Source of the DNA: Elusimicrobiota bacterium | GTDB lineage: Bacteria > Elusimicrobiota > Elusimicrobia > Elusimicrobiales > UBA9959 | DNA length: 38,826 bases | Assembly: GCA_026388125.1 (NCBI GenBank) | Contig: JAPLKJ010000303.1 | Coordinates: forward strand, 1 to 38,826 | Direction of reading: 5' to 3' | Shown here: in pieces, positions 3,045 to 38,826 of the stretch | How the letters are laid out: every line of letters starts with the position of its first letter | Position numbering within the stretch: the stretch's first letter is position 1 | Notes under the pieces: model-generated | Seen by the model: only the letters and a program-made list of their open reading frames with translations | The model's database searches: none | Told to the model about the DNA's origin: nothing | Made by a program: the position numbers and the translations under genes

Positions 3045-3064
3045 AAGTGTTGCGCCGCCGCCGC

Positions 3065-3083
3065 GTTTCTCCGCCGGAGAAAC
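3065..3083 (+). terminator. Hairpin after ptsI, no U-tract
   Basis: Perfect 8-bp stem GTTTCTCC / GGAGAAAC with a GCC loop, 20 bp after the ptsI stop. It is followed by AACGGATG rather than a T-run, so intrinsic termination is uncertain. It separates ptsI from the promoter element that starts at 3120. Confidence 0.4.
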
Positions 3084-3119
3084 AACGGATGTCAGTAGTT
3101 CCGGCCGCGCCGCATAACC

Positions 3120-3190
3120 GTAATACTACCGAGCTTGACCAGCAAAACTCCGAATAGATTTCAAACCGGTGATGGACTATACTTGAATTG
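3120..3190 (+). promoter_or_regulatory. Conserved promoter-like element, copy A
   Basis: Contains GTAATACTACC, then ACTCCGAATAG, then 20 bp, then TATACT (3178-3183). Spacing is identical to copies B (20694) and C (22844). The two CCGA cores are 21 bp apart. No TTGACA-like hexamer sits 16-18 bp upstream of the -10. A start near 3190 would leave a leader of about 38 nt before the ATG at 3228. Confidence 0.72.
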
Positions 3191-3227
3191 CGCCACTGGT
3201 GGCGGAACAGTAAAGGGGTATAAAAAA

Positions 3228-23759: not shown

Positions 23760-25490
23760 ATGCTTAAGCCAGGCTGCGGGATATTAACTGCAATTATAGC
23801 CGGACAGCGGGCCGGCTGTTTTTTTTGCGCGCTGTTCCCGGCGTTGCTTTTACTCTCAGTGCCGGCCAGCCCGGCTGAAGGCAGCGCCGCGGGCGCGGCC
23901 CAACCGCAGCGCCTCTCCTCAAAGGGGGAAAGCGAACTGCGCGGCATTGTAGCCGCCGGGCGCCTTAAGACCCTCCAGCAGCCCCAGTTCGGCGAATATC
24001 AGGCGGAGCTGGGCGAATTTTACAAGGCCGAGGACTATACGCTGGTCTGGGTGCGGCAGTCCAGGCCTACGGCCAAGGCCCGCGTAGTGATCAAGCGGCT
24101 GCAGGCGGCCGACAACGACGGCCTGCTGGCCCAGGATTATGACAGCCCCTTATGGGCGGCCCGCCTGGCGGGCCTGGAGCGTCCCGGCCGCCGCGCGTCG
24201 GAGTCGCAGCTGCTCCGCTTCGACCTGGCGCTCACTGTCTGCGCGATGCGCTACATCCTGGACCTGCACCTGGGCCGCATCAATCCGCAGGCTTTTCACG
24301 CCACTTTCGACTTCGAGCCGGACATACGCGGCCCTGCGGATTATCTCCGCAAACGGGTCATGTCCGCAGAGGACGTGGCGGCGGCGTTCAGCGCGCTCGA
24401 GCCTCCCTTCCCCGCCTACCGCCGCCTGGTCAAGGCCGTGCAGCGGTACCGGCAGCTGGCCCGCAAGGACGACGGAGAGCGGCTGCCGTTGGCCGGTTAT
24501 CCGATAAAAGCCGGCGCCTACTACCCCGGCGTGCCGCGGCTTACGCGCCTGCTGGGCCTGCTGGGCGACCTTCCCGCGCGGGCCGTTCCTTCCTCCAACG
24601 TGTATGGCGCCGCGCTGGTGAAAGGCGTGAAGCATTTTCAGCGCCGCCACGGGCTGGCTCCGGACGGGATACTGGGCGAACAGACGCTGCGGCAGCTCAA
24701 TACGCCGCTGGCCGTGCGCCTGAGCCAGCTGCGCCTTACGCTGGAGCGGTGGCGCTGGCTGCCGCGCCGGTTCTCCCGGCCGCCCATCATCGTTAATATC
24801 CCGGAATTCCGGCTTTACGCCGGCGACGAGCCTTCCCAGAAAGTGGTGGTCGGCATGGCCTTCGAGCACCAGACCCCGGTATTCGCCAGCCAGCTTACCG
24901 AGGTGGTGTTCCGTCCTCCGTGGACGGTCCCGATGAGCATACAGCTTGCGGAGATGGTGCCGAAGATAGAGAAGAACCCGGCCTATTTAATGAAAAATGA
25001 TTTCGAAGTGATAGACGGCAAGGAAGACATGGTCAGCTCGGGGGCTGTCAGCGCGCAGGTGTTGGACCAGCTCCGGAAAAGCCAGCTTTACCTCAGGCAA
25101 AGGCCCGGCCCCAACAATTCGCTGGGGTTGGTGAAATTCCTTATGCCCAATAACCACAGCGTCTATATCCACGGCACGCCTTCAAGAGGGGGCTTCAGGG
25201 AGGCGCAGCGGGACCTGAGCCACGGTTGCATCCGGGTGGCGGATCCAGGCGCGCTGGCGGTCTGGGCGCTGCGCGGCCAGCCTGAGTGGCCGCCTGAGCG
25301 CATCCTGGCGGCTATGAACGGGGGTGAGACCGTGACGGTCAAGCTCAGCGAGCCGATACCGGTGCTTATACAGTACGGAACGGCGGTGGTAGAGGAGGAC
25401 GGGGAGGTGCGCTTTTTTGACGATATCTACAACCACGACGCGGCGGAGGCGGCGGTCTTCGAGAAAAGAGCGCTGACCGCGGCGAGGTGA
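23760..25490 (+). CDS. YcbB/LdtD-type murein L,D-transpeptidase
   Basis: 576 residues. A signal or anchor (hydrophobic core about 20-34) is followed by the YcbB scaffold domain (about 60-270), a peptidoglycan-binding motif (about 275-320, VKHFQRRHGLAPDGILGEQT) and the YkuD catalytic domain (about 340-510). The active site is Cys490 in SHGCIRV, with the partner His in VYIHGTPSRGGF. It should form 3-3 cross-links in the periplasm, bypassing penicillin-binding proteins. E. coli LdtD has 615 residues, so length is usual. It converges on a DUF882/MepK-like gene with a one-base gap. The homologous E. coli pair ycbB-ycbK is adjacent but in the same direction. Confidence 0.88.
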   Translation: MLKPGCGILTAIIAGQRAGCFFCALFPALLLLSVPASPAEGSAAGAAQPQRLSSKGESELRGIVAAGRLKTLQQPQFGEYQAELGEFYKAEDYTLVWVRQSRPTAKARVVIKRLQAADNDGLLAQDYDSPLWAARLAGLERPGRRASESQLLRFDLALTVCAMRYILDLHLGRINPQAFHATFDFEPDIRGPADYLRKRVMSAEDVAAAFSALEPPFPAYRRLVKAVQRYRQLARKDDGERLPLAGYPIKAGAYYPGVPRLTRLLGLLGDLPARAVPSSNVYGAALVKGVKHFQRRHGLAPDGILGEQTLRQLNTPLAVRLSQLRLTLERWRWLPRRFSRPPIIVNIPEFRLYAGDEPSQKVVVGMAFEHQTPVFASQLTEVVFRPPWTVPMSIQLAEMVPKIEKNPAYLMKNDFEVIDGKEDMVSSGAVSAQVLDQLRKSQLYLRQRPGPNNSLGLVKFLMPNNHSVYIHGTPSRGGFREAQRDLSHGCIRVADPGALAVWALRGQPEWPPERILAAMNGGETVTVKLSEPIPVLIQYGTAVVEEDGEVRFFDDIYNHDAAEAAVFEKRALTAAR

Positions 25491-25491
25491 A

Positions 25492-26007
25492 TCACCACCG
25501 GCGCACGCGGCCTACATCTACATGCACGAAATTGGAGCCGGCGTAGTACCCCACGCCGCCGCGCCTGAGCGCCAGCGCCGTGTCGCGCAGGCGGGAAGTG
25601 CGCACGCCCGGCAGGCGGATGTCTATGGCCTCGGCCCGCATGTGCAGGCTGTTGCCGGCCACGGCGGAACTGCGGCTCCGCAGCCCTTTATTCGTTGCCG
25701 GAGTGCGGAAGCCGCAGATGATATGGATCTCCGCTTCCGGCCGCTTTACTTTGGCTGTAAGCTCGGTGAGCAGGTCGAAGAGCCGCGGGTCATAGTGCTT
25801 TACCTTGTCCACCCTCCAGTCGCGCAGGAACAGGTCGAGCTTGGCCAGCGCCTCTGTGTCATAGACCGCGCCGCGGCGGTAGACCACGTCCAGATGCTCG
25901 TGCGTATGAGTGTTGAAAAGCCGCAGCCGGCATTCGCTCGGCGCCGGGGGCGCAGCGTAGGCGAAAGCGCAAGGCAGGAGCAGCGCCGCCAGCAGGACAT
26001 GTTTCAT
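25492..26007 (-). CDS. DUF882/MepK-like murein peptidase
   Basis: 171 residues with a signal peptide (MKHVLLAALLLPCAFAYA). Motifs of the DUF882/peptidase M15-like family: RLRLFNTHTHEHLDVVY, IICGFRTPATNKGL, NSLHMRAEAIDIRLPG and NFVHVDVG. HxxxxxxD plus the later HVD match the zinc-ligand set. E. coli MepK cuts 3-3 cross-links, the bonds that the neighbouring transpeptidase would make, so the two are a logical making-and-cutting pair. The 58-bp upstream gap holds an inverted repeat CTATC/GATAG. Confidence 0.85.
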   Translation of the reverse strand: MKHVLLAALLLPCAFAYAAPPAPSECRLRLFNTHTHEHLDVVYRRGAVYDTEALAKLDLFLRDWRVDKVKHYDPRLFDLLTELTAKVKRPEAEIHIICGFRTPATNKGLRSRSSAVAGNSLHMRAEAIDIRLPGVRTSRLRDTALALRRGGVGYYAGSNFVHVDVGRVRRW

Positions 26008-26011
26008 ACCT

Positions 26012-26027
26012 CTATCGTACCAGATAG
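26012..26027. promoter_or_regulatory. Inverted repeat CTATC-N6-GATAG before the MepK-like gene
   Basis: A 16-bp imperfect palindrome 5-20 bp upstream of the start codon. It could be an operator or an RNA hairpin close to the ribosome site. Only one copy was noticed. Confidence 0.3.
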
Positions 26028-26065
26028 ATGTGTCAGTTTTATTGCAGGGCCGCGCTGACGCCCGT

Positions 26066-27208
26066 TCAATCCGGCTGGCCCGGTGTTGCGGGTTCGTCCT
26101 TAGCGCCTTTTCCCGTCAGGTCCTTCCAAAGCTTGCGTTCCAGCGCCACGGACTTTTCCAGGTTATCATGGGCCTGTTCTATAAGACCTTTGAATTTATC
26201 CGTGTTAACGCCGGCGCCGCCGGCCTTGCCGCTGTCGGAGTTCATGAAGATCACGAGTTCCGTCACCGAGTCGTTGAGCGAATCCGCCCCTTCGCTGAAG
26301 TCCAGCGCCGCGTTATAAATGCCGCGCTCGCGCTCTGAAGCTTTATCCGGCTTTTTCAGCAGCAGCCAGGGCTGCCAGCGGACCTGCCGGGTAAGCGCCT
26401 TGAGGTTGGCGGTAGCTTTCTCGGCGTTGGCGACGCCGCGGATGAGCGGGTCGCGGCTTTTTATCATCACCTCGTCCACGTTTTTCCCGGCCCGCGCCAG
26501 GGATTCGGAGGCGGCATGGAAGTTGACCAGGGTGTCGGCTATGCGCTCTTTGCTGCCCGCCACCGAGCCCGAGAGCTGCTCCAGGTTCTTGACGCTGTTG
26601 ACAATGCCCTGCTCCGCCGCCGGAATGGAGCGGTTAAGGGACGCCAGCACCGACTTGGCCAGCGCGCTGGTCTCCTTGAGATTTACCACGGCCTCATGCG
26701 CGGCGCCGGCCATCTCCTTGTCCGCCAGCAGGGCTACGAAATCGTCGATGCGCCTGACGATGGTGCCGGCTTTCTTGGCCAGTTCGGTAATGGCTACCGG
26801 TGCGTCCCCTGTAATTTTCTCTCCGGCCGCGAGCTTCACCGCGGCGCGTCCCGGGACTACCGTGAGCACCGTGATGCCGGTCAGCGTGCGGTCCACGGCG
26901 ACGCTGGTGTCGTTCGAGAACGGTTCCGCGTAGGTTATGCTGGCCGTCACCTCCACTGCCGCCGCCCGGCGGCCCGCCTCATCCGTGAAATGGGTCACTT
27001 CTATGCCCGTCACCTTCCCGAGTTTAAGCCCCATCACCCGGACCGGGTCCTCTACCTGTAAGCCCTGCACGTCCGTGAACAGGATATGCAGCGTCTGTTT
27101 CTTCTTGAACAGGGAGCTCCAGTTGCCGGAGGCGACAAGGATCACTCCCGCCAGGAAGAGCGCCGCCAGTATGACCGTCCCCGCCTTGATCTCGGATCTC
27201 GTTCTCAT
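26066..27208 (-). CDS. mlaD: MlaD/MCE-domain lipid-transport protein
   Basis: 380 residues. One membrane helix (about 10-27) is followed by an MCE domain (about 38-120, FTDVQGLQVEDPVRVMGLKLGKV, TLTGITVLTVVPG), then a long helical region (about 150-330) and a charged Pro-rich end. MCE proteins form hexameric rings in the periplasm that hold lipids on their way between membranes. The helical extension after the single MCE domain, with RWQPWLLLKKP, is typical of MlaD relatives outside Proteobacteria. It ends the run mlaE-mlaF-mlaD. GGAGAAAAC precedes the ATG. Confidence 0.88.
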   Translation of the reverse strand: MRTRSEIKAGTVILAALFLAGVILVASGNWSSLFKKKQTLHILFTDVQGLQVEDPVRVMGLKLGKVTGIEVTHFTDEAGRRAAAVEVTASITYAEPFSNDTSVAVDRTLTGITVLTVVPGRAAVKLAAGEKITGDAPVAITELAKKAGTIVRRIDDFVALLADKEMAGAAHEAVVNLKETSALAKSVLASLNRSIPAAEQGIVNSVKNLEQLSGSVAGSKERIADTLVNFHAASESLARAGKNVDEVMIKSRDPLIRGVANAEKATANLKALTRQVRWQPWLLLKKPDKASERERGIYNAALDFSEGADSLNDSVTELVIFMNSDSGKAGGAGVNTDKFKGLIEQAHDNLEKSVALERKLWKDLTGKGAKDEPATPGQPD

Positions 27209-27217
27209 GTTTTCTCC

Positions 27218-28039
27218 TTAAAACCGCTCCAGGAAGGGCTCGAGCAGGTCCTCGGCGTAATCCTTCTGCGACACCCGCAGCGGTATGGGCCCGTCGGCCA
27301 GGCCGTTGACGAACTGCCGCACCAGCGGGTCGGCGGAAGCGCGTATCTCGGCCGGCGTTCCCACGGCCACGGCGCGGCCCCTGAAAAGCAGTATCATCCG
27401 GTGCGCGATCTTGAAAGCGCTGCCCATGTCGTGGGTCACCACTATGGAAGTCACGCCGGTCTTTTTGTTCAGGTCCATCATCAGCTCGTCTATCATGGCG
27501 CTGGCTACGGGGTCCAGCCCCGCGGAAGGCTCGTCATAGAACATGATCCGGGGGTCCAGCGCCATGGCGCGGGCCAGGCCCACGCGTTTTTTCATGCCCC
27601 CGCTGAGCTCGGCGGGCTTGAGGTGTTCGAAGTCGCGCAGGCCGACCATCTCCAGCTTCATTTTTACCATGATGTTTATGACGTCAGCCGAAAGCTTGGT
27701 GTGCTCTTTGAGCGGCAGGGCTATGTTCTCGCCCACTGTCATCGAGTTGAAGAGCGCGCCCGATTGGAAAAGGATGCCTGTCTTTTTGCGCAGGGCGTCC
27801 AGCCCGGCCTCGTCGAGCAGCGTGAGGTCGGCGCCCAGCATCTCGATGGAGCCGGAGGTGGGGCGCATCGCGCCTATGAGCAGGCGCAGCAGGGTGGACT
27901 TCCCGCAGCCGCTGCCGCCCATGATGACGAGGATCTCGCCTTTATTGACCTGGAAGTTCAGGCCGTCGAGAACGACCTGGCCGCTGAATTTCTTGACCAG
28001 GTTCCTGACTACTATCGGTTTCGGTTCTTCTGTGTTCAT
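27218..28039 (-). CDS. mlaF: MlaF-type ABC transporter ATPase
   Basis: 273 residues, cytoplasmic. Walker A GGSGCGKST (about 38-46), Q-loop region LFQSGALFNSMTV, signature LSGGMKKRVGLARA, Walker B RIMFYDEPSAGLDP, and switch His in VVTHDM. The LSGGM signature and GALFNSMTV Q-loop region are typical of MCE-linked (MlaF/Mkl) ATPases. It powers lipid movement through MlaE and the MCE ring. Four bases separate it from mlaE. Confidence 0.93.
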   Translation of the reverse strand: MNTEEPKPIVVRNLVKKFSGQVVLDGLNFQVNKGEILVIMGGSGCGKSTLLRLLIGAMRPTSGSIEMLGADLTLLDEAGLDALRKKTGILFQSGALFNSMTVGENIALPLKEHTKLSADVINIMVKMKLEMVGLRDFEHLKPAELSGGMKKRVGLARAMALDPRIMFYDEPSAGLDPVASAMIDELMMDLNKKTGVTSIVVTHDMGSAFKIAHRMILLFRGRAVAVGTPAEIRASADPLVRQFVNGLADGPIPLRVSQKDYAEDLLEPFLERF

Positions 28040-28043
28040 AGCT

Positions 28044-28850
28044 TCAGCGGCCTAAGAGCAGCCGGAATACCGCCGCGAACAAACAATCCGCGCTGATGAT
28101 CATCACGATAGAGAACACTACCGAGCGGGTGGCCGCGCGGCCTACCCCCTCCGCCCCGGAATCGACGCGCAGGCCCTCGAAACAGGCGATGAGCACGATG
28201 AGCTGCGCGAAGAACCAGCTTTTGAAGATGCCCACCACCACGTCCGAAGTGACCAGCGTTTCAAGCATCTTCTGGGTAAAAAGAGCCGGGGAGATATGCA
28301 GGACGCCCCAGGCGATGCCCATGCCGCCCAGCACGCCCACAAAGTTCCCTACCATGGTAACGCAGGGGATCATCACCGCCGCCGCGATAAAGCGCGGGAC
28401 TACCAGGTAGCGGACCGGGGAGATGGCCAGCGCCCGCAGCGCCTCCAGCTCCTCGCTCACGGCCATCGTGCCCAGCTCGGCCGACATCGCCGCCCCGGCG
28501 TAGCCGGCCATGACCATGGCGGTCATGAGCGGCCCCAGCTCGCGGAAGATGCCCAGCCCCACCACGCTGCCCACGTATTCGCTGATGCCGAACGTTTTAA
28601 GCAGGTTGGCCAGCTGCAGGGCTATCACGACCCCGATAAATAGCTGCACGAGGCAGACTATCCCCAGGCTGGAGAATCCTACGCGCACCATCTGCTCGAA
28701 GACCGGCGCGCTGCGCACCCGGAGCCTGCGCCGGTCGAAAGGCGCGACAAAAATAAAAGAGAGAGCGTCGGCGAGCAGCCAGGCCATGCCGCCGATATAG
28801 CGCAGCCCGGAGTAAAACCGGGCGCCCAGCTCTCCCGCTGTCCTTTCCAT
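28044..28850 (-). CDS. mlaE: MlaE-type permease
   Basis: 268 residues with five or six membrane helices. Family marks: QMVRVGFSSLGIVCLVQLFIG, the ELGPLMTAMVMAGYAGAAMSAELGTM segment, and EELEALRALAISPVRYLVVPR, all typical of MlaE/YrbE permeases. It forms the inner-membrane part of the MCE lipid transporter. It begins three bases after the STAS gene, so the STAS protein sits in the position of MlaB in other Mla systems. Confidence 0.92.
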   Translation of the reverse strand: MERTAGELGARFYSGLRYIGGMAWLLADALSFIFVAPFDRRRLRVRSAPVFEQMVRVGFSSLGIVCLVQLFIGVVIALQLANLLKTFGISEYVGSVVGLGIFRELGPLMTAMVMAGYAGAAMSAELGTMAVSEELEALRALAISPVRYLVVPRFIAAAVMIPCVTMVGNFVGVLGGMGIAWGVLHISPALFTQKMLETLVTSDVVVGIFKSWFFAQLIVLIACFEGLRVDSGAEGVGRAATRSVVFSIVMIISADCLFAAVFRLLLGR

Positions 28851-28853
28851 GGT

Positions 28854-29198
28854 CTATACCCCCAGGGCCTCGCCGCGCGAGGCCGCCAGCCTGAAAAATT
28901 TATCCAGCCTGGCCAGCGCGAAGACGTCCGCTACGTTCTCGGTCATGCCGGCCAGCACCAGCGCCACTCCCGCCGCTTTGGCCAGCTTCATCGCCTCTAC
29001 CAGCGTGGCCACCCCCGAGCTGTCTATGAACGTGACCGCCGAAAGGTCCACCACCACGGCGGCCGGCCTGAGCGCGATCGCCTCCAGCAGCGCGGAGCGC
29101 AGCCTGGGCGACTCGTGCATGTCCACTTCTCCGGCCGCCGCTATCAGGGCCGCGCGGCCCAGCTTCGTGTTTTCCAGAAGTTCAGTAGTTACCTGCAT
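28854..29198 (-). CDS. STAS-domain protein (anti-sigma-antagonist / MlaB-like)
   Basis: 114 residues forming one STAS domain. The phosphorylation motif VTFIDSSGVATL places Ser60 directly after Asp59, as in SpoIIAA and RsbV. Its start overlaps the stop of the phosphatase/kinase gene by 10 bases, and it stands three bases before mlaE. It could be an RsbV-type switch protein, or the MlaB subunit that binds and stabilises MlaF, or both. MlaB of E. coli is also a STAS protein. The retained Ser favours control by phosphorylation. Which partner it binds cannot be read from sequence. Confidence 0.85.
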   Translation of the reverse strand: MQVTTELLENTKLGRAALIAAAGEVDMHESPRLRSALLEAIALRPAAVVVDLSAVTFIDSSGVATLVEAMKLAKAAGVALVLAGMTENVADVFALARLDKFFRLAASRGEALGV

Positions 29199-30745
29199 GG
29201 TTTTGTGCTCCCCCGTATCAGCATATGCAGCTCGTTGCCGTCCCAGAGCTTGTCGTCGAATTCCGCCACGTCCATTACCTCGCGTATGTAGCGCAGCCCC
29301 AGCCCGCCCGGGCGGATGTCTGCCAGGTCGCGCGAGGCGAAGCGCCCTGGCTCCTGTCTGTCGCCCCAGTCGCGGATATGCACGGCGAACTGCCCGGAGC
29401 GCCGCTCCACCCCTATGCGGATCCTGCCGTCGGGGCTCATGCGGTAGGTATGCTTTATGATGTTGGCCGCGGCCTCGGTGACCGCCAGCAGGATGGCCCC
29501 GGTCTTTCTTTCATCGAAGCCGTGCGCCAGCGCCAGCTTTTCCACGAACTGCCGGGCCGGGGCCAGGAACTTCGTTTGCGACGGGAACGTGCGTTCCTCG
29601 TAATCCCCGTAGCCGACCCCCACCACGGTGATATCGTCGGCCAGGGGCTGCCCCGCGGTGAACCGGGAGATAGCTTTCATCAGCCGCGGCACGGCCAGTT
29701 CCGGGCTGTCGGCCAATATCTCGCGGGCCTTCTTCTGCCCCAGGCGGCCGCCTCCCGGCGCTTTCGCGTCGTATACGCCGTCGGTCATGAATACGATGCG
29801 CTCCCCGCGGGCCAGCGTAAGGCCGGCGCTTTGATAGGTCTGCTCCTCCGCCACGCCGAGCGGCGGGTAGCCGGGGGTGACCGCCAGCCTGGAGCCGCCC
29901 CTGAGCGGGCCTACTATCACCGGCGGGAGATGGCCCGCGTTTACGAGTTCCACCGCGCCGGAGGCGGGGTCGATAACGGCGTCGAAATCGGCGGAGAATT
30001 TCGCCGCGAAGAGGGCCGCCGGCACGCCCTTGCCGGAAACATCCGCCACCAGCACGGCCAGCCTGCCGTCGGGAAGCCGGGTGATGTCTATCACGTCGCC
30101 CGCCACATAGCGGCAGGCCAGGCTGCGGCATTCCACGCGCAGGTCCCGGATGGACGGGATGTCGGAGGGCAGGGCCGCGCGCTGGATCTGCTCGGCGATC
30201 TGCATGTCGCGCCCGAGGCGGTCCTGCTCGATGGCTTTCCTGCGGAGCAGGGCGTTGTCTATGGCGATGGCGGCTACTGCGCAGTACCGGGCGAACAGCG
30301 CCTGGTCGGCGGGAGTAAAGGGGGTACCGTCAACTTTGTTTATGAGTTCCGCCACGCCTACCAGCCGGCCGCGCGCGGACAGCGGCAGGTAAAGCACGCT
30401 TTTCGTGCGAAAGCCGGTCTTCTGGTCCAGGGCGGGAGAGAACCGGGGGTCCTTGTAGGCGTCTTCCGCCAGCAGGGGTTTGCCGCTGGCGGCCACCCAG
30501 CCCGCCAGGCCGGCTCCGAGCTTGATCGGCGGCTGTTCCCTGGGGCGCGGCCTGGCTTTGCCCAGAGCCGCTTCGTAAGTCAGTTCGCCCGCGGCCGCGT
30601 TGACCAGCAGCATGCCGGAGGCTTCGGTGCGCAGGAGGTTCCCGGCCTTCTTGAGCACCTGGGTCAGAACGGCTTTAAGGTCCAGCGCGGAAGTGAGCAG
30701 GGCGTAAACGTCAAGCAGCCGTTCGTCTTTAGTATTAAACGCCAT
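29189..30745 (-). CDS. GAF-SpoIIE phosphatase-HATPase fusion, shortened phosphatase core
   Basis: 518 residues, soluble. GAF sensor about 12-168 (LGAGLAGWVAASGKPLLAEDAYKD-type). PPM/SpoIIE phosphatase about 205-375 with metal Asp motifs AGDVID, DVSGKGVPAALF, TDGVYDA and ADDITVVG. RsbW-like HATPase about 385-515 with EAAANIIKH, DWGDRQEP and GGLGLRYI. It thus carries both a phosphatase and a kinase-like domain for STAS proteins, and it overlaps the STAS gene. The phosphatase part looks about 34 residues short: after GVPAALFAAKFSADF it jumps straight to DAVIDP, missing the helix and strand (usually including FVT-LY) that normally lie between. All Asp ligands remain. Activity is therefore uncertain. 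Confidence 0.85.
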   Translation of the reverse strand: MAFNTKDERLLDVYALLTSALDLKAVLTQVLKKAGNLLRTEASGMLLVNAAAGELTYEAALGKARPRPREQPPIKLGAGLAGWVAASGKPLLAEDAYKDPRFSPALDQKTGFRTKSVLYLPLSARGRLVGVAELINKVDGTPFTPADQALFARYCAVAAIAIDNALLRRKAIEQDRLGRDMQIAEQIQRAALPSDIPSIRDLRVECRSLACRYVAGDVIDITRLPDGRLAVLVADVSGKGVPAALFAAKFSADFDAVIDPASGAVELVNAGHLPPVIVGPLRGGSRLAVTPGYPPLGVAEEQTYQSAGLTLARGERIVFMTDGVYDAKAPGGGRLGQKKAREILADSPELAVPRLMKAISRFTAGQPLADDITVVGVGYGDYEERTFPSQTKFLAPARQFVEKLALAHGFDERKTGAILLAVTEAAANIIKHTYRMSPDGRIRIGVERRSGQFAVHIRDWGDRQEPGRFASRDLADIRPGGLGLRYIREVMDVAEFDDKLWDGNELHMLIRGSTKPCR

Positions 30746-30770
30746 ATTTTTCCCGCCGGCCCGCAGTTGT

Positions 30771-31478
30771 TCAATAGTTTTCCGGCGGCCGCGGCCCGGC
30801 GCCCTCTTGCCGCGCCGGGCCCTCTCCCTCTTCCGGACCGCTCGTGTCCAGCACGGTGTCGACCATGTGAATGATCTGCCCGGCCGCCCTCACCGCCCCG
30901 GCAAGGTGGCGGGCTGAATCGGGCGAGAGGGTATTCTTCGGGTCTTTTATTATGAGCGCGTGAAAGTCGGAGATCCCCGTCAGCGGCGGGCGCAGGTCGC
31001 GTATGATCATGTCCACCAGGCCGTCGCGCAGTTTTTTCAGCTCGCGCAGCTCGTTGAAGTTCTCCTGCAGCAGCTGCCTCTGCCTGTGCAGCTCGAGATG
31101 GGTGGCAACGCGCGCTTCCACTTCCTCGAACTGGAACGGTTTGGTGATATAGTCCACGCCTCCGCTGCCGAAGGCTTTTACTTTGTCCATGGTCTCGTTG
31201 AGGGCGCTCAGGAAAATAACGGGTATATCTTTAAGTTTTTCGTCGGCCTTAAGCTCCCCGCAGACCGCGTAGCCGTCCATTTCGGGCATGTTGATGTCCA
31301 GCAGGATAAGGTCGGGCGGGTCGTTGCGGGCGGCCTGCAGCGCCAGCTTCCCGCTGACGGCGGCGCGCACCTTGTAGCCCCGCCCCTTCAGCATCCCGGA
31401 AAGCAGTTCGAGGTTGGCGGGCGTATCGTCCACCATCAGCACGCCCGGCGGATTTTGGGGATGGATAGGTTCGTTCAT
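30771..31478 (-). CDS. Receiver with a dead, truncated kinase DHp domain
   Basis: 235 residues. Receiver about 10-130 with Asp17/Asp18, Asp61 in LLDINMPEMDG and Lys in YITKPF, so phosphorylatable. A coiled DHp region follows (about 140-212) that aligns residue for residue with its neighbours at 31636 and 34183. Where these have His160 (HDLR), this has Arg160 (RDLRPPL; codon CGC against CAC). The HATPase domain is missing and replaced by a Gly/Pro/Glu-rich tail. It cannot act as a kinase. It is first in the run behind promoter element E, 25 bp ahead of the phosphatase gene, and may control that protein by phosphorylation-dependent binding (inference). Confidence 0.85.
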   Translation of the reverse strand: MNEPIHPQNPPGVLMVDDTPANLELLSGMLKGRGYKVRAAVSGKLALQAARNDPPDLILLDINMPEMDGYAVCGELKADEKLKDIPVIFLSALNETMDKVKAFGSGGVDYITKPFQFEEVEARVATHLELHRQRQLLQENFNELRELKKLRDGLVDMIIRDLRPPLTGISDFHALIIKDPKNTLSPDSARHLAGAVRAAGQIIHMVDTVLDTSGPEEGEGPARQEGAGPRPPENY

Positions 31479-31556
31479 AGCCGGTTTCCTCTCTTCTGAG
31501 CTTCAGCGCGTGTCATAGGGCGGCCCCGGCGGGACTGCGACCCCGCGGTCAGGCTT

Positions 31557-31627
31557 ACTTCATACTTTACCCTGCCGGCGCCCTTGACGGCAATTAGGAC
31601 TTATACGCGCGGCTATAGGTAATATCC
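31557..31627 (-). promoter_or_regulatory. Conserved promoter-like element, copy E
   Basis: Read on the minus strand: ATATTACCTATAGC, then GTCCTAATTG, then 21 bp, then TAAAGT (31564-31569), followed by ATGAA as in copy D. It shares TATAGCCGCGCGTA with D apart from one base. The -10 and spacing are weaker than in A-D. The leader would be about 80 nt before the start at 31478. Confidence 0.6.
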
Positions 31628-31635
31628 GCGCCGCT

Positions 31636-32769
31636 TTATACGCCGGCGGCCTTTACAGGCAATTCGAACCAGAAGGTGCTGCCCTTGCCCTCGACGCTGT
31701 CCACCCCGATGCTGCCGCCGTGGGCCTCCACCGCCAGTTTGCAGAAGGTAAGCCCCAGGCCGGAGGAATATCTCTGCTGCCCGGAACGGAGTTCGGCCTG
31801 GGCGAACTTCTCGAAGATCTTCTGCTTATATTCCGGGGCAACACCCAGCCCGTTGTCCTTCACGCTGACGCGTACCCGGCCGCCCGCGGGCGCCATGCCC
31901 AGCAGTATTAGGTCGCCGTCGCGTGTGAACTTCAGCGCGTTGGACAGCAGGTTCTGCAGTATCCTGAGGACGATCTCACGGTCGGCCAGGACCGTCACCG
32001 GGCTTTCGGTGGGGGTAAGCCGGATCTCCCTGCCGCCGGAGAGCGGCTGTATGCCCGAGACGGCGTCTTCCAGGATGCGGCCCAGGTCGCATTCCGCCGT
32101 CTTCAGCTTCATCCGCCCCTCTTCCATCTGGCTCGTCTCCAGAATATCGCAGGTCATAGCGATCATCTGCATTACCGCCTTCATGGCCTCGGCCACGTAG
32201 CCGGAGTGGGCCGCGGAAAGCGTGCTGTCCGCGTTGTCCCTGATGAGCTTGAGATAGGCGAAGGTTCCCGTGAGCGGAGAGCGCAGGTCGTGTACGACCA
32301 TCTGCACCAGGCTGTCGCGCAGTTTTTCAAGCTCGCGCAGTTTGTCGTAGGCCTCCTGCAGGCGCAGTTTCTGCCGGCGCAGTTCCAGGTGGGTCTCGAC
32401 GCGCGCCTCCACTTCCTCTATCTGGAACGGCTTGGTGATGTAGTCCACGCCGCCGGTGCCGAAGGCTTTTACTTTATCGATCGTTTCATTGAGGGAGCTC
32501 AGGAAAATAACGGGGATATCTTTCAGCTTTTCGTCGGATTTGAGTGCCGTGCACACTTCGTAGCCGTTCATTTCCGGCATGTTGATGTCCAGCAGGATGA
32601 GGTCGGGCGGGTCGTTGTGGGCGGCCTGCAGCGCCAGCTTTCCGTTGACCGCGGCGCGCACGTTGTAGCCCCGCTCTTTCAGCATCCCGGTGAGCAGCTC
32701 CAGGTTCTCGGGCGTATCGTCCACCATAAGAACGGTCGGCGGGTTCTGGGAATAAAGAGGTCCCTTCAT
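31636..32769 (-). CDS. REC-histidine kinase hybrid
   Basis: 377 residues, soluble. N-terminal receiver (about 10-130, Asp17/18, Asp61 in LLDINMPEMNG), coiled linker, HisKA with His160 in VVHDLRSPL, and HATPase about 255-375 (NLLSNALKF, DNGLGV, SSGLGLTF). The receiver-first layout means that an upstream kinase sets its activity. All key residues are present, unlike its two closest neighbours. It is the last gene of the signalling run that starts beyond 38826, ten bases after the cyclase gene. Its last 32 codons are almost identical in DNA to those of the 34183 gene. Confidence 0.9.
   Translation of the reverse strand: MKGPLYSQNPPTVLMVDDTPENLELLTGMLKERGYNVRAAVNGKLALQAAHNDPPDLILLDINMPEMNGYEVCTALKSDEKLKDIPVIFLSSLNETIDKVKAFGTGGVDYITKPFQIEEVEARVETHLELRRQKLRLQEAYDKLRELEKLRDSLVQMVVHDLRSPLTGTFAYLKLIRDNADSTLSAAHSGYVAEAMKAVMQMIAMTCDILETSQMEEGRMKLKTAECDLGRILEDAVSGIQPLSGGREIRLTPTESPVTVLADREIVLRILQNLLSNALKFTRDGDLILLGMAPAGGRVRVSVKDNGLGVAPEYKQKIFEKFAQAELRSGQQRYSSGLGLTFCKLAVEAHGGSIGVDSVEGKGSTFWFELPVKAAGV
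31663..31758 (-). repeat. 96-bp segment 97% identical to 34219-34314
   Basis: 93 of 96 bases match between the 3' ends of the two REC-kinase genes, and the encoded 32 residues (GLTFCKLAVEAHGG onward) are the same. The neighbouring HATPase sequence is much less alike, which suggests gene conversion or recent exchange. Confidence 0.85.
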
Positions 32770-32779
32770 AATGTTTTCC

Positions 32780-34180
32780 TTACAGCCCCTGCTGTGCCGC
32801 CCGGCCGGGTTTATGGCCCAGAACCTGGTAGATATGCACGGGTTCAGTGCGCCCCTTAACCGGCTTTTCGCCCATATATTTAAAGTCGAAATGGTCTTTT
32901 GTCGCCAGGTACACGGGCCGGCTGACTATCAGATCGGTGCCGTAATCTTTATTGGCGCCTTCCATGCGGGAGGTCACGTTAACGGTGTCGCCGATAACCG
33001 TGTACTGGACCTTCTCCTGGCTGCCGATATTGCCTGCCACGGCTTTGCCGGAATTGATGGCGATGCCGATCGCGATAAGTTTGCGGCCTTCCTTCAGCAG
33101 GGCGTCGTTGAGGACGGTCAGGCGCACCTTCATGTCCAGAGCCGCGGCCACAGCCAGCCTCTCGTGGTCCCGGTTGTATATGGGCCAGCCGAATACGGCC
33201 AGGATGGCGTCGCCGATGAACTTGTCCACCGTGCCGCCATGCGCCCCGATCACCTGCACCATTTCCGTGAAATAGCGGTTCAGCAGTTGGACCACTTCCT
33301 GCGGGGGGAGTTTCTCTGAGAACTCCGTGAACCCGCGGATGTCGGACATCAGGACCGTCATTTCCTTCAGTTCGCCCCCGCCCAGTGCCAGTGACACTTT
33401 TCCGTTCAGGAAACCGTCCACCACTTCCTTGGACATGTAGCGCCCGAACGTGCTGCGGATCAGTTCTTTCTCGCGCAGGCTGAGGACCATCTGATTGAAG
33501 GCCTGCGTAAGCTGGCCTATTTCGTCCTTCATCGTAAAAGGGACCTGCATGTCCAGCCGCCCCTCCCCGACCTGGCGCGCCGCCCGGGCCAGCACCGGCA
33601 GCGGCCGCAGCATCCATCCGACTATGAGGAGAGTTCCCAGTATGTCCAGGAGGATAGCGAAACCGGCCAGCACCAGCACCTTTCTCTTGGAGTCCTTCAG
33701 GCTGCTCGCCACCGAAGCCCAGGTGGAGCCGATGTGCACCGTCCCCGTCCTGTGTTTGCCTGAAAATACCGGGGCTGAGATGTCGAAATAAAAAATGCCG
33801 CGGCCGGAATATTGCTGGACCAGTGTGCCGCGTGACTGCGCCGCGATCCTGGCCGTCGGGCTGTCGTCTATCGCTCCGACCTTCCGGCTGTCCGTGTGGG
33901 CCAGTACCCTGCGGCTGGTGTCCAGGAACCCGGCGTACTCCACCCCTTTTTCCTTCAGCATTTCCTGAGTATTGAAATTAAGGGTAAAAAGGTCGAGCCG
34001 GCGGGAAATAGCTTCTCCGGCCGAACGGGCGTACGCGATAGACCTGAGCTTCAGCTCCGCTACCATCAGCTGCTCCCCCTGCTGTAGCAGTATGCACGTC
34101 ATCGCCACGATGATCGCCAGGACGAAGAGCGAGGCTAATAAAGACAGTTTCAGCGCTATCTTGTTCGCTTTTATTTTCAT
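32780..34180 (-). CDS. Membrane-bound class III adenylate cyclase
   Basis: 466 residues. Membrane helix about 10-32, periplasmic sensor domain about 33-165, second helix about 168-190, HAMP (about 192-245, LRPLPVLARAARQVGEGRL), then a class III cyclase domain (about 265-445). Catalytic marks: metal Asp in VLMSDIRGFTEFSE, substrate Lys and second Asp in VDKFIGDAILAVFG, and transition-state residues in YTVIGDTVNVTSRME. The Lys and Thr point to ATP rather than GTP. It should make cAMP in answer to a periplasmic signal. It lies two bases after the REC-kinase gene at 34183. No cAMP receptor is visible, but one could bind the repeated promoter element (speculation). Confidence 0.9.
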   Translation of the reverse strand: MKIKANKIALKLSLLASLFVLAIIVAMTCILLQQGEQLMVAELKLRSIAYARSAGEAISRRLDLFTLNFNTQEMLKEKGVEYAGFLDTSRRVLAHTDSRKVGAIDDSPTARIAAQSRGTLVQQYSGRGIFYFDISAPVFSGKHRTGTVHIGSTWASVASSLKDSKRKVLVLAGFAILLDILGTLLIVGWMLRPLPVLARAARQVGEGRLDMQVPFTMKDEIGQLTQAFNQMVLSLREKELIRSTFGRYMSKEVVDGFLNGKVSLALGGGELKEMTVLMSDIRGFTEFSEKLPPQEVVQLLNRYFTEMVQVIGAHGGTVDKFIGDAILAVFGWPIYNRDHERLAVAAALDMKVRLTVLNDALLKEGRKLIAIGIAINSGKAVAGNIGSQEKVQYTVIGDTVNVTSRMEGANKDYGTDLIVSRPVYLATKDHFDFKYMGEKPVKGRTEPVHIYQVLGHKPGRAAQQGL

Positions 34181-34182
34181 AA

Positions 34183-35325
34183 TTAACCGGGGCTCCGCGC
34201 GCGGCCGTTCGCCGGCAGTTCGAACCAGAAAGTGCTGCCCTTGCCCTCGACGCTGTCCACGCCTATGCTGCCGCCGTGGGCCTCCACCGCCAGTTTGCAG
34301 AAGGTAAGCCCCAGACCCGTAGAGTGTTTCTGCCGCCCGGCGGGCAGTTCCACCTGAGCGAACTTGTCGAATATTCTCTGCCGGTACTGAGGCGCGATGC
34401 CCGGCCCGTTGTCGTGCACGCTCACGCGCATACGGCCGCCGGCGGGCGCTATGTCCGCCTGGATGGTCCCGCCGTCCGCCGTGAACTTCAGCGCGTTGGC
34501 CAGCAGGTTCTGTATGACCCGGAAAATTATATCCCGGTCCGCCAGGACAACAACCGGGCTTTCAGGGGCCGCGAACCGGATCACGCGGCTTTCCGCCAGC
34601 GCCTGCAGCGCGGAGATGTTGTCTTTCACCGCTCCGGCCAGGTCGCAGTCCTCCAGTTTCAGCTTCATCTGCCCGCCTTCCATCTTGCTGGCGTCCAGCA
34701 CGTCGCTGACTATCTGGGCTATCTGGTCCGCCGCGTTCCTGGCCTCGATTATGTAGTGGCCGGACTTCTTGGTAAGCGAGTTCTGCCGGTCGTCTTTGAT
34801 GAGTTCCAGGAAGCCGCCTATTACCGTGAGCGGGGTGCGCAGGTCGTGTATGACCATGTGCACCAGTGTGTCGCGCAGTTTTTCCAGCCTGCTGAGCTCG
34901 TCGTAGTTCTCCTGCAGCTGGCGTTTCTGCCGTAGCAGTTCCAGGTGTATCTTTACGCGCGCCTCCACCTCCTCGAACTGGAACGGCTTGGTGATGTAGT
35001 CCAGGCCGCCGGAGCGGAAGGCTTTCACCTTATCCATGGTCTCGTTGAGCGCGCTCAGGAAAATGACGGGGATCTCTTTAAGTTTTTCGTCGGCCTTAAG
35101 TTCCGCGCATACCTCGTAGCCGTCCATGCCGGGCATATTGATGGCCAGCAGGACGAGGTCGGGCGGCTCGTTGCGGGCGGCCTGCAGCGCCAGTTTTCCG
35201 CTGACGGCGGCGCGCACGCTGTAGCCCCGCTCTTTGAGCATCCCGGTGAGCAGCTCCAGGTTCGCCGGCGTATCGTCCACCATCAGGATGCTCGGCATTG
35301 TTTTAGTGTTCATCGGTTCGTTCAT
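34183..35325 (-). CDS. REC-histidine kinase with a non-phosphorylatable receiver
   Basis: 380 residues from ATG 35325, chosen because GGAGGAAAC lies just upstream; an ATG eight codons earlier lacks a site. The receiver (about 10-130) keeps Asp17/18 and the Lys in YITKPF, but the phospho-acceptor is Ala61 (LLAINMPGMDG, codon GCC where neighbours have GAC). The kinase part is intact: His160 in VIHDLRTPL, NLLANALKF, DNGPGI, STGLGLTF. The receiver may serve as a fixed docking domain while the kinase works on other receivers of the cluster. Confidence 0.9.
   Translation of the reverse strand: MNEPMNTKTMPSILMVDDTPANLELLTGMLKERGYSVRAAVSGKLALQAARNEPPDLVLLAINMPGMDGYEVCAELKADEKLKEIPVIFLSALNETMDKVKAFRSGGLDYITKPFQFEEVEARVKIHLELLRQKRQLQENYDELSRLEKLRDTLVHMVIHDLRTPLTVIGGFLELIKDDRQNSLTKKSGHYIIEARNAADQIAQIVSDVLDASKMEGGQMKLKLEDCDLAGAVKDNISALQALAESRVIRFAAPESPVVVLADRDIIFRVIQNLLANALKFTADGGTIQADIAPAGGRMRVSVHDNGPGIAPQYRQRIFDKFAQVELPAGRQKHSTGLGLTFCKLAVEAHGGSIGVDSVEGKGSTFWFELPANGRARSPG
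34219..34314 (-). repeat. 96-bp segment 97% identical to 31663-31758
   Basis: Partner of the copy described at 31663; it encodes the same 32 residues at the end of the HATPase domain. Confidence 0.85.
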
Positions 35326-35367
35326 ATTATGTTTCCTCCGCGGTGCCATGAACCCCTGCGGCCGGGC

Positions 35368-36477
35368 TCAGTACGCGCCGTCGTCCAGGCGCGCGCTGAT
35401 AGCGGCGAATTCGGCTTCGATGGCCCTGAAGGCCGCCGCCGCGGAGGGATCGAATTGGCTGCCGGCGCCTTCCAGGATCAGCGCGCGGCTTTGTTCGTGC
35501 GTGAAGGCGGGCTTGTACGGGCGCCGCGTGCGCAGGGCGTCATAAACGTCGGCTACGGCCATGATCCTGGCGGCCAGGGGGATAGCCTCGCCGGCCAGCC
35601 CGTCGGGGTAGCCGCCGCCGTCCCATCTTTCATGGTGCGAGCGCGCGATGTCGCTGCCCATGTTCAGGAACAGGCTGCCCGGATATCTGCCGCGCGCGGT
35701 GCGCAGGGTGTCCGCCCCGATGGCCGCGTGGGTCTTCATGATCTCGAACTCGCCCGGGGTGAGGCGGCCGGGCTTCAGCAGGATGCTGTCCAGTATGCCT
35801 ACCTTGCCGATATCGTGCAGGGGAGCGGTATGCGAGACGCTTTCTATGAAGCTTTCAGTTATGATGTCCGCGTGGCGCGGATCGCCGCGCATTTTCCCGG
35901 CCAGGACCGTAGCGAAGGTCCGCGTGCGCTCGATATGCTCCCCGGTGTGCTTGTCCCGGGACTCGGCCAGTTTTGTCAGCGACAGGATGGCCGCCAGCCG
36001 GGAGTCGGAGATCTCCGCGGCTTTTTCCTTTACCAGCGCTTCCAGGTGCAGGTTATGCCTGGCCAGTTCCTGCTGCAGGCCGCGCAGGCGCAGATGCGTT
36101 CCCACGCGCGCGCAGACCTCGTCGAACTGGAACGGCTTGGTTATATAGTCCACGCCGCCGGCGCCGAAGGCTTTTACCTTGTCGGCGGGTTCGCTCAGCG
36201 CGCTCAGGAAAATAACGGGGATATCTTTCAGGCGGCCTTCGGCTTTCAGGCGCCGGCACACCTCGTAGCCGTTCATTTCAGGCATGTTGATGTCCAGCAG
36301 GACCAGGTCGGGCGGCTCGTTGAGGGCGGCCCGCAGCGCCAGTTCCCCGCTGACGGCGGCGCGCACCGCATAGCCCCGCTCCTTCAGCATGCCCGAGAGC
36401 AGTACCAGGTTGGCGGGCGTATCGTCCACGATAAGGATGCTCGCGGCGTGCGGCCGTTCAAGCGTGCTGGCTGTCAT
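35368..36477 (-). CDS. REC-HD-GYP cyclic-di-GMP phosphodiesterase
   Basis: 369 residues. Receiver about 10-130 (Asp18/19, Asp62 in LLDINMPEMNG), a coiled linker, then HD-GYP about 155-350. The domain keeps the metal and motif residues: HTGEHIERT, HDIGKVGI, HAAIGADTL, HHERWDGGGYPDGLAG and DVYDALRTRRPYK. It should break down cyclic di-GMP when its receiver is phosphorylated. The receiver is close in sequence to those at 30771, 31636 and 34183, so one kinase may feed several. It starts four bases after the stop of the tandem-PAS kinase. Confidence 0.92.
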   Translation of the reverse strand: MTASTLERPHAASILIVDDTPANLVLLSGMLKERGYAVRAAVSGELALRAALNEPPDLVLLDINMPEMNGYEVCRRLKAEGRLKDIPVIFLSALSEPADKVKAFGAGGVDYITKPFQFDEVCARVGTHLRLRGLQQELARHNLHLEALVKEKAAEISDSRLAAILSLTKLAESRDKHTGEHIERTRTFATVLAGKMRGDPRHADIITESFIESVSHTAPLHDIGKVGILDSILLKPGRLTPGEFEIMKTHAAIGADTLRTARGRYPGSLFLNMGSDIARSHHERWDGGGYPDGLAGEAIPLAARIMAVADVYDALRTRRPYKPAFTHEQSRALILEGAGSQFDPSAAAAFRAIEAEFAAISARLDDGAY

Positions 36478-36481
36478 GGGG

Positions 36482-38826
36482 TCAATCCTTTGCCAGCAGT
36501 TCGAGTATGCGCGGCGTGTCGAATTTGCCGGCCAGCGAGCGCAGCGCCCCCGCCAGGTGCGGAGTCTGCGCCTCCACCAGCACGTTCAGTTCTCCGAGCA
36601 GGAGGAAATCGCCGTTGATGGCGGCTTCGCGCAGCCGGGCCGCCAGCCCGGGCGGGAGGCTGGCCAGGGCGCCCTGCTTCAGCGTTCCCATGTCCTCCGT
36701 GGCGGCGGCGGCCGCTTCGGCCTCACCCTCGTAGATGTATTCCGCGCCCAGCAGGGTGCGGATCTTGTCGAACAGTTCCGCTTCCCTGAAAGGCTTGAGT
36801 ATCAGCTCGTCGGCCCCGGCCCCGAACGCGTCCCGGTTTATCTCGCCGAAGATGCTGGCTGTTACCGCGATTATTTTTACGCCCTTGCCGCCGGCGAGGG
36901 CCCGGATGCGGCGCATGGCCTCATAGCCGTCCATGACCGGCATCCGCAGGTCCATCAGCACCAGCTGCGGGCCCCACGCTTCGAACTCGGTCAGCGCGTC
37001 CGCCCCGTTGACCGCCTGCCGGACGTCGAACCCCGCCGGGCCGAGCAGCTGGCCCAGGAATTCCCGGTTGTCCTCTTTGTCGTCCACTACCAGCACCCGG
37101 TACCGCGGCTGGCCCGGCTTAAGCTCTTTCACCAGGCGCGGCTGTACCTTGCCCACCGCGTCCGCGGGCGACGTTTCGGCGAGGGCGGTGTTAAAGCTGA
37201 AAATACAGCCCTCTCCCGGCCGGCTAGCCACCGTGATATCTCCGCCCATCAGGCGCGCGTAGCCGCGGCTGATGGCCAGCCCCAGCCCGGTGCCGGTGCC
37301 GCCCGCCCTGCCCGCCTGCGCCTGTTCGAACGGATGGAACAGCCGGTCCAGTTCCTGCGGCTCTATGCCCGGGCCCGTGTCCTCTATTTCCGCCGTCAGG
37401 GTTACTCCCTGCGCGGCGCCGGGCCGCGAGGCTACGCGCAAAGTAACCGCGCCGTTCATGGTGAATTTTACGGCGTTGCTGAGCAGGTTCAGCAGGATCT
37501 GCCGGAGCTTGCCCTCGTCGGCCAGCACGTAGTGCGGCAGTTCCCTGCTCCATTCCACGTCCAGCCGCAGGCCTTTGCTTTCGGCGCGCGGCCGCAGCAT
37601 CTTTTCCACGTCGCCTATCAAAGCGTGCAGGTCGAAAGCCGACGGGTTCAGCGTGGTCCGGCCGGCTTCCGCCTTGGCCATCTCCAAAATGTCGTTTATC
37701 AGCGACAGCAGGTGTTCGCCGCTGCGGTTGATGGTCTCTATCTGCTGCCGCTGTTTGGGCGTGGCTTCCGCGTCGCGCCGCAGCAGCTGGGAAAAGCCCA
37801 GGATGGCGTTCATCGGGGTGCGTATCTCGTGCGACATGTTGGCCAGGAAGGCGCTTTTGGAGCGGTTCGCCACCTCGGCCGCTTCCTTGGCCTGGCGCAG
37901 TTCGGTCTCGAACCGCCTGCGCTCGGTGATGTCCTCGATGGACAGCAGGATGATGCGCTCTTTGCCCGACGCTCTTTGGATCTGCCGGGCGTTCAGGAGC
38001 ATGATGCGGCGGCCGATGTCGGCGAAATCGTGCGCGACCTCGTAATTGTCGAAGGTGGTCTTCTGCGGCAGGATGGTCTCCAGCAGTTCCCGCAGCTTGG
38101 GGATATCCCACTGCTTATTGCCCAGGTCGTAGATAAGCTGGCCGACGGTCTCTTTGGGGTTCACTTTGAAAACTTCATAGAAGGAGCGGCTGGCCGAGAC
38201 CACCCGCAGGTCCTGGTCCAGCGAGATCAGCGGTTCGCGTACGGTATTGATGATGCTGTCGGAGTATTCGCGGGCCGCGTCTTCGGAGATCTTGGTGGCG
38301 GCCAGTTCTTTGCGGGCTTTTTCCAGCCCGTCCTCGATCTCCCTGCGCGCGGTGATGTCCTCGATGGACAGCAGGATGATGCGTTCCTTGCCCGACGCCC
38401 GTTGTATCTGCCGGGCGTTCAGGAGCATGATGCGGCGGCCTATGGCGGTGAAATCGTGCTCCACCTCGTAGTTGTCGAAGGTGGCTTCCTGCGGCAGGAT
38501 GGTCTCCAGCAGTTCCCGGAGCTTGGGGATATCCCACTGCTTGTTGCCCAGGTCGTAGATAAGCTGGCCCACGGTCTCTTCGGGGTTCACTTTAAAGACT
38601 TCATAGAAAGAGCGGCTGGCCGAGACCACCCGCAGGTCCTGGTCCAGCGAGATCAGCGGCTCGCGCACGGTGTTGATGATGCTGTCGGAGTATTCGCGGG
38701 CCGCGTCTTCGGAGATCTTGGTGGCCGCCAGTTCTTTGCGGGCTTTTTCCAGGCCGTCCTCGATCTCCCTGCGCTCGGTGATGTCCTCGATGGCGAGCAG
38801 GATGATGCGCTCCTTGCCCGACGCCC
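36482..38826 (-). CDS. Tandem-PAS hybrid histidine kinase, 5' end outside the window
   Basis: The frame is open to the right edge (about 781 residues visible). An internal ATG at 38668 is not the true start, because the coding repeats continue upstream of it. Order in the visible part: end of one PAS unit, two complete near-identical 142-residue PAS units (REPLISLDQDLRVVSASRSF opening, DIT-RR closing), HisKA (FLANMSHEIRTPMNAILGF), HATPase (NLLSNAVKF, DTGPGI, GTGLGLAI), receiver (VLVVDDKEDN, LMDLRMPVMDG, ILKPF) and a short helical tail (LREAAINGDFLLLGEL, FDTPRILELL). The tail is of the kind often found after such receivers and has no HPt-type His motif. It is the first gene in the visible run and the likely head of the relay. 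Confidence 0.9.
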   Translation of the reverse strand, partial: ASGKERIILLAIEDITERREIEDGLEKARKELAATKISEDAAREYSDSIINTVREPLISLDQDLRVVSASRSFYEVFKVNPEETVGQLIYDLGNKQWDIPKLRELLETILPQEATFDNYEVEHDFTAIGRRIMLLNARQIQRASGKERIILLSIEDITARREIEDGLEKARKELAATKISEDAAREYSDSIINTVREPLISLDQDLRVVSASRSFYEVFKVNPKETVGQLIYDLGNKQWDIPKLRELLETILPQKTTFDNYEVAHDFADIGRRIMLLNARQIQRASGKERIILLSIEDITERRRFETELRQAKEAAEVANRSKSAFLANMSHEIRTPMNAILGFSQLLRRDAEATPKQRQQIETINRSGEHLLSLINDILEMAKAEAGRTTLNPSAFDLHALIGDVEKMLRPRAESKGLRLDVEWSRELPHYVLADEGKLRQILLNLLSNAVKFTMNGAVTLRVASRPGAAQGVTLTAEIEDTGPGIEPQELDRLFHPFEQAQAGRAGGTGTGLGLAISRGYARLMGGDITVASRPGEGCIFSFNTALAETSPADAVGKVQPRLVKELKPGQPRYRVLVVDDKEDNREFLGQLLGPAGFDVRQAVNGADALTEFEAWGPQLVLMDLRMPVMDGYEAMRRIRALAGGKGVKIIAVTASIFGEINRDAFGAGADELILKPFREAELFDKIRTLLGAEYIYEGEAEAAAAATEDMGTLKQGALASLPPGLAARLREAAINGDFLLLGELNVLVEAQTPHLAGALRSLAGKFDTPRILELLAKD
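37917..38826 (-). repeat. Tandem 426-bp repeat encoding PAS units
   Basis: The marker TCCTCGATGG recurs at 37932, 38358 and 38784, an exact 426-bp (142-codon) period. Two full copies and the start of a third are visible and are nearly identical at DNA level, so the duplication is recent. More copies may lie beyond the edge. Confidence 0.9.

Follow-up and report, generated by a model that had tools for sequence, protein, structure and literature searches.

The gene run and its surroundings

The window analysed here is a stretch of 38,826 nucleotides from a metagenome-assembled Elusimicrobiota genome (G000; 3.47 Mb in 311 contigs, 95% complete). ORF calling placed a run of six genes on its minus strand, with intergenic gaps of 25, -10, 3, 4 and 9 bp in the order of the run. 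The first gene (30771-31478) encodes an accessory REC-HisKA protein consisting of a REC domain (Pfam Response_reg, 6.5e-29) and a DHp domain with a weak HisKA match, without an ATPase domain. It is followed by the gene for a 518-aa protein (29189-30745) in which a GAF domain, a coiled coil, a SpoIIE domain of the PP2C type (1.2e-30) and a HATPase_c_2 domain (2.2e-21) are combined, and which is predicted to be a bifunctional STAS phosphatase and kinase. The start of the third gene overlaps the end of this SpoIIE gene by 10 bp and belongs to a STAS-only protein of 114 aa (28854-29198; Pfam STAS, 1.9e-21) in an MlaB-like position. The remaining genes code for an MlaE family permease (28044-28850; Pfam MlaE, 1.7e-71), an MlaF ATPase with a C-terminal extension (27218-28039; Pfam ABC_tran) and an MlaD/MCE-domain protein with a long C-terminal region (26066-27208; Pfam MlaD, 3.9e-9), so that permease, ATPase and MCE-domain protein of an Mla/MCE lipid ABC transporter are encoded in one operon. 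Genes for MlaC and MlaA were detected neither in the operon nor elsewhere among the window ORFs scanned with Pfam, and the same scan yielded no sigma factor gene. The sequence-only reading, which had described a tight six-gene run in a window devoid of sigma factor genes, was borne out: the ORF coordinates and gaps were the same, the Pfam domains agreed and the scanned window ORFs included no sigma factor.

Upstream of the run, a Cache-HAMP-class III nucleotide cyclase is encoded on the minus strand at 32780-34180 (Pfam Guanylate_cyc, 3.9e-26). It lies within a cluster of four REC-bearing genes at 30771-36477 (REC-DHp, two REC-HisKA-HATPase and REC-HD). Aligned stretches of the REC-DHp and REC-HisKA proteins share about 65% identity, and the cluster apparently arose by local expansion. 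Tandem PAS repeats occupy positions 36482-38668, and since several copies with 90-93% DNA identity occur on contig C175 of the same genome, the window contig probably ends in a repeat. At 14981-19110, an Omp85-family and a TamB-like gene adjoin each other, surrounded by genes for OmpA, BON-domain and L,D-transpeptidase proteins, and constitute another candidate lipid-transport system in the window.

The REC gene lies directly upstream of the other five genes in six of eight Elusimicrobiota loci and is absent from L039 and L139, which leaves a core of five genes; in Pseudomonadota, its place is taken by pssA, and the REC gene was ruled out as part of the core. All six REC proteins at these loci lack an ATPase domain. 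The DHp histidine is replaced by R in the window and by N in L034 and is retained in the other four loci, so that the sequence-only designation as pseudokinase, in the sense of a lost histidine, describes the window allele rather than the gene. Conservation of the full six-gene order, proposed as a check, was observed for the five-gene core, which recurs in two phyla, and not for the REC gene.

Distribution of the core in two phyla

The sampling covered 341 genomes of Elusimicrobiota and 398-genome samples of Pseudomonadota. Six relatives from the same genus keep the order SpoIIE-HATPase, STAS, mlaE, mlaF, mlaD, and a relative from another family (G230, locus L139) has the same five genes with 53-79% identity. 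A profile of the module MlaE matched with E < 1e-120 in eight of the 341 genomes, while the other MlaE proteins listed for the phylum scored about 1e-59 or weaker, and the SpoIIE-HATPase profile gave full-length matches in the same eight genomes, the window copy being matched in two pieces. In 8/8 of these genomes the two genes are adjacent. Genome G010 of the same genus has no module, and nearly all of positions 23760-38668 is missing from it at the DNA level. In G000, STAS matches were limited to the operon protein and one within a frame of 763 residues that presumably encodes a SulP transporter. The RsbW-type ATPase of the operon is the sole strong one in this genome. Three same-genus genomes without the module had no strong RsbW-type ATPase, and their STAS matches all lay in long frames. 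The relative G002 contains further pairs of an RsbW-type ATPase and a STAS gene (contigs C123 and C97; L295 and L296), with no mlaE detected alongside.

In a sample of 398 genomes from the phylum to which a Gammaproteobacteria MAG belongs, one of the 30 loci inspected had the module, that of G498, in the order pssA, GAF-SpoIIE-HATPase, STAS, mlaE, mlaF, mlaD and a gene for an ABC auxiliary lipoprotein. A relative of its switch protein (the GAF-SpoIIE-HATPase protein) was present in 74 of the 398 genomes sampled from the taxonomic order of G498. In the best 30 of these loci, STAS and mlaE follow the switch gene without exception (30/30), and pssA precedes it wherever the contig reaches. Twenty further loci were read, eight of which have the module (two of them repeats), with phosphatase and kinase as separate genes in four of the eight; the other 12 keep pssA and the switch gene with neither STAS nor mla alongside. 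Altogether, the succession SpoIIE-HATPase, STAS, mlaE was present in 36 Pseudomonadota loci, and longer stretches, where read, also contained mlaF and usually mlaD. As the core recurs in eight Elusimicrobiota and 36 Pseudomonadota loci, the gene order in the window is not a matter of chance.

Relatives in which the mla genes lie apart from the phosphatase/STAS pair had been named beforehand as evidence against the proposed switch. The 12 split loci are such relatives, yet in 8/8 examined genomes of this group the sole small STAS gene is situated at another site immediately upstream of mlaE-mlaF, indicating that the STAS gene stays with the transporter when switch and transporter separate. At L213 (G635; 1372-3591), GAF-SpoIIE, HATPase and STAS are encoded by three genes on a 6.7-kb contig without mla genes, from which it follows that the switch can operate in other contexts or act in trans. 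The STAS protein of this locus is about 60% identical to the transporter-linked STAS of L212. In Pseudomonadota (L212, 4705-10670; L216-L245), the switch gene directly follows pssA, which suggests that phospholipid synthesis and transport are linked. In the Elusimicrobiota loci, the ORFs read around the switch gene were other genes, and pssA was not detected among them.

In a tree of 47 MlaE proteins that carries a long-branch warning, the module MlaE of both phyla clustered with a support of 93/84, which is below the strict threshold. They stood apart from canonical MlaE, represented by the E. coli protein and by the canonical-type second MlaE of two genomes that bear the module, and ordinary Elusimicrobiota MlaE were separate from them as well. 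The module MlaE of the two phyla likely share ancestry, although this is not firm because of the long branches. The same tree speaks against direct descent of the operon from the ordinary mla genes of Elusimicrobiota.

Properties of the STAS, MlaF and switch proteins

In the STAS protein, Ser60 is the first serine of the motif D59-S60-S61-G62 and occupies the SpoIIAA phosphosite, at which serine is kept in 52/52 STAS relatives. Both the presence of this phosphorylatable residue and the location of the protein at the MlaB position had been pointed out from the sequence alone and were borne out; the protein is the MlaB-position partner of the operon MlaE and MlaF and the sole small STAS protein of G000, in which a second MlaB-like STAS able to pair with MlaF was looked for and not found. 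It scored 74 bits against TIGR00377 (anti-sigma factor antagonist), above the cut-off, and 31.7 bits against the MlaB equivalog NF033618, the cut-off of which is 90. Because the TIGR00377 score exceeds the MlaB score, the STAS protein could also act on behalf of a sigma factor. In E. coli, assembly and ATPase activity of MlaF depend on MlaB, and the T52E variant of MlaB weakens MlaF binding (PMC5016091, PMC7367683). T52A abolishes ATPase activity without release of MlaB (PMC5016091), indicating that this residue does not act simply as a binding switch and may also affect catalysis. Whether MlaB is phosphorylated at this residue is a question that both papers raise and leave open, and no kinase for it is known (PMC5016091, PMC7367683).

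The C-terminal extension of E. coli MlaF contacts the MlaF-MlaB interface (PMC7367683), and the window MlaF carries the corresponding residues Y261, L265 and L266. In the Pseudomonadota loci read to the end, the tyrosine and the first leucine are kept and the second leucine is replaced by Thr or Val. A second mlaE-mlaF pair of G000 (contig C69; L033, 5485-7082) immediately follows alr; no STAS gene was seen next to it, and the MlaF of this pair aligns only to about residue 239 and has no MlaB-docking tail. The docking tail of the module MlaF lends indirect support to the proposed STAS-MlaF binding.

The PP2C aspartates, the N-box Glu and Asn and the G1 Asp of the HATPase domain are invariant in 56/56 relatives of the switch protein, and the HATPase domain is predicted to be a GHKL kinase of the RsbW type; the closest solved architecture is the RsbU-RsbW protein Rv1364c (3ke6). 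Compared with the other copies, the window gene has an in-frame deletion of 102 bp (junction at 29981-29986, minus strand) that removes 34 aa and is absent from the aligned relatives. The metal-binding Asp of the SpoIIE domain is kept in the window copy despite the gap in the fold, which is intact in the relatives; according to the predicted structures, the missing segment comprises a helix and part of a strand. Ten-residue means of model confidence in the PP2C region were about 76-95 for the intact L034 protein and about 46-85 for the window protein, the two models being built from slightly different alignments. Among the top 50 PDB matches, the L034 model retrieved phosphatase structures of RssB, SpoIIE and SiaA, whereas the window model retrieved the fused Rv1364c and no stand-alone PP2C. 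The deletion probably disables the phosphatase in the window, or it reflects an assembly flaw.

A GAF profile built from eight loci had its best PDB matches in cyclic-nucleotide GAF proteins, namely a cyanobacterial adenylate cyclase (8.9e-37), PDE5 (2.3e-35), PDE2 (3.1e-33) and Lcd1 with cAMP (3.5e-28). These scored far better than most other GAF domains, but that of an HD-GYP protein reached 8.2e-29. In the NKFDE motif of these module GAF domains, N, K, F and D are invariant and the last residue is Gln. The class III cyclase is encoded two genes upstream in the window, L037 and L038 have a gene with about 80% identity to it in the corresponding position, and it is a possible source of a GAF-domain ligand. 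We hypothesize that cAMP or cGMP is the signal.

A probable partner switch with a transporter as output

We consider it likely that the kinase/phosphatase acts on the MlaB-like STAS protein in a partner-switching mechanism, the output of which is the MCE/Mla-type lipid ABC transporter and not a sigma factor. Conservation of the operon in two phyla points to direct on/off control of lipid transport by the switch. For the biochemical steps and the direction of the switch, we infer that the unphosphorylated STAS protein would be the MlaB subunit, docked on the helical subdomain and the C-terminal extension of MlaF, and that it would let MlaF join MlaE and hydrolyse ATP. Phosphorylation of Ser60 and/or sequestration of STAS by the HATPase domain would take STAS off MlaF and stop transport, and dephosphorylation by the SpoIIE domain of the same polypeptide would restart it, with the balance of kinase and phosphatase set by the GAF domain, which probably binds a cyclic nucleotide. 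The proposal of the sequence-only reading that a STAS switch controls Mla is retained insofar as the STAS protein is the MlaB-position partner and has a dedicated kinase/phosphatase linked to it in two phyla; it is weakened by the apparent damage to the phosphatase in G000, the exclusion of the REC gene from the core and the existence of L213 without mla genes.

Classical transcriptional partner switching, in which the HATPase protein would be an anti-sigma factor antagonised by STAS, with the mla genes simply co-transcribed or part of the regulon, could account for the proximity of the STAS protein to anti-sigma factor antagonists (TM1442, SpoIIAA), for an RsbW-type HATPase with Rv1364c as closest solved relative and for the nine genes with sigma-70 region 2 in G000. 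However, the scanned window ORFs include no sigma factor gene, neither in the operon nor next to it, and the set of sigma factors in G000 resembles that of G010, which has no module. The persistence of STAS with mlaE instead of the HATPase gene in split lineages and the MlaB-docking tail of MlaF also argue against this mechanism, which we regard as improbable. Still less probable is a constitutive, structural MlaB with a vestigial phosphosite, sharing an operon for expression with a switch that targets PssA or envelope enzymes. It would agree with the Pseudomonadota SpoIIE-HATPase genes being tied more tightly to pssA than to mla, as in the 12 loci with pssA and no mla, but the invariance of the serine (52/52) and of the kinase and phosphatase sites (56/56) argues against it. 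Moreover, neither G000 nor the eight split-lineage genomes yielded a further small STAS substrate, and pssA was not among the ORFs read around the Elusimicrobiota switch.

A different question is whether the module of G000 is decaying, such that a broken phosphatase fold leaves STAS permanently phosphorylated or the operon non-functional. The restriction of the 102-bp deletion to the window copy, the lower confidence of its PP2C model and the lack of stand-alone PP2C structures among its top 50 PDB matches, of which the intact copy has several, speak for decay. On the other hand, the reading frames are open, the kinase domain, STAS, MlaE, MlaF and MlaD look intact and an assembly error may account for the deletion, so that we rate decay as somewhat unlikely. 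It is compatible with control of the transporter by the switch in the other genomes.

We found no description of this operon in the open-licence PMC literature; plasmid records contained weak matches to the module or none, and a contig scan with narrow patterns recovered close relatives and weak GAF matches. Tentatively, and with some doubt, we propose a widespread, apparently undescribed second Mla-type class in which MlaB is a true phospho-switch. In this class, a signal would pass from a cyclic nucleotide via GAF, PP2C/kinase and the STAS serine to MlaF, coupling second messengers, and in Pseudomonadota also phosphatidylserine synthesis by pssA, to inter-membrane phospholipid transport without transcription. 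If this is true, partner switching would extend to the post-translational control of an ABC transporter, and the lipid balance of the outer membrane could answer a signal without new transcription.

The output of Rv1364c and of the RsbU/RsbV/RsbW modules is a sigma factor. Rv1364c of Mycobacterium tuberculosis (RsbU-RsbW, PDB 3ke6) and RsbU/RsbV/RsbW resemble the module in the fusion of a SpoIIE phosphatase to an RsbW-type kinase and in a STAS domain with the DSSG motif, but here STAS and switch are associated with an ABC transporter for lipids. Phosphatase/kinase control of a small phospho-protein is also reported for SypE-SypA of Vibrio fischeri and for HsbR-HsbA-HsbD and SiaABCD of Pseudomonas aeruginosa (PMC8457831, PMC5085249, PMC8256260), and SiaC activates the diguanylate cyclase SiaD, an enzyme output in place of a sigma factor (PMC8457831, PMC5085249). 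The targets reported for these systems differ from that proposed here: an unknown factor, the control of RpoS or diguanylate cyclases. None of the systems found is reported to act on an ABC transporter. The E. coli MlaFEDB complex shares with the module a STAS-only protein encoded together with MlaE and an MlaF with docking extension (PMC7367683, PMC5016091), and MlaB likewise has Ser or Thr at the position of the SpoIIAA phosphosite. In contrast to the window STAS gene, which lies upstream of mlaE and adjoins its own kinase/phosphatase gene, with MlaC and MlaA missing from the scanned window ORFs, E. coli mlaB is the last gene of mlaFEDCB, has no kinase or phosphatase alongside, and its phosphorylation has only been hypothesised. 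Because the operon offers candidate kinase, phosphatase, substrate and transporter together, in many genomes of two phyla, it makes the question of MlaB phosphorylation directly testable.
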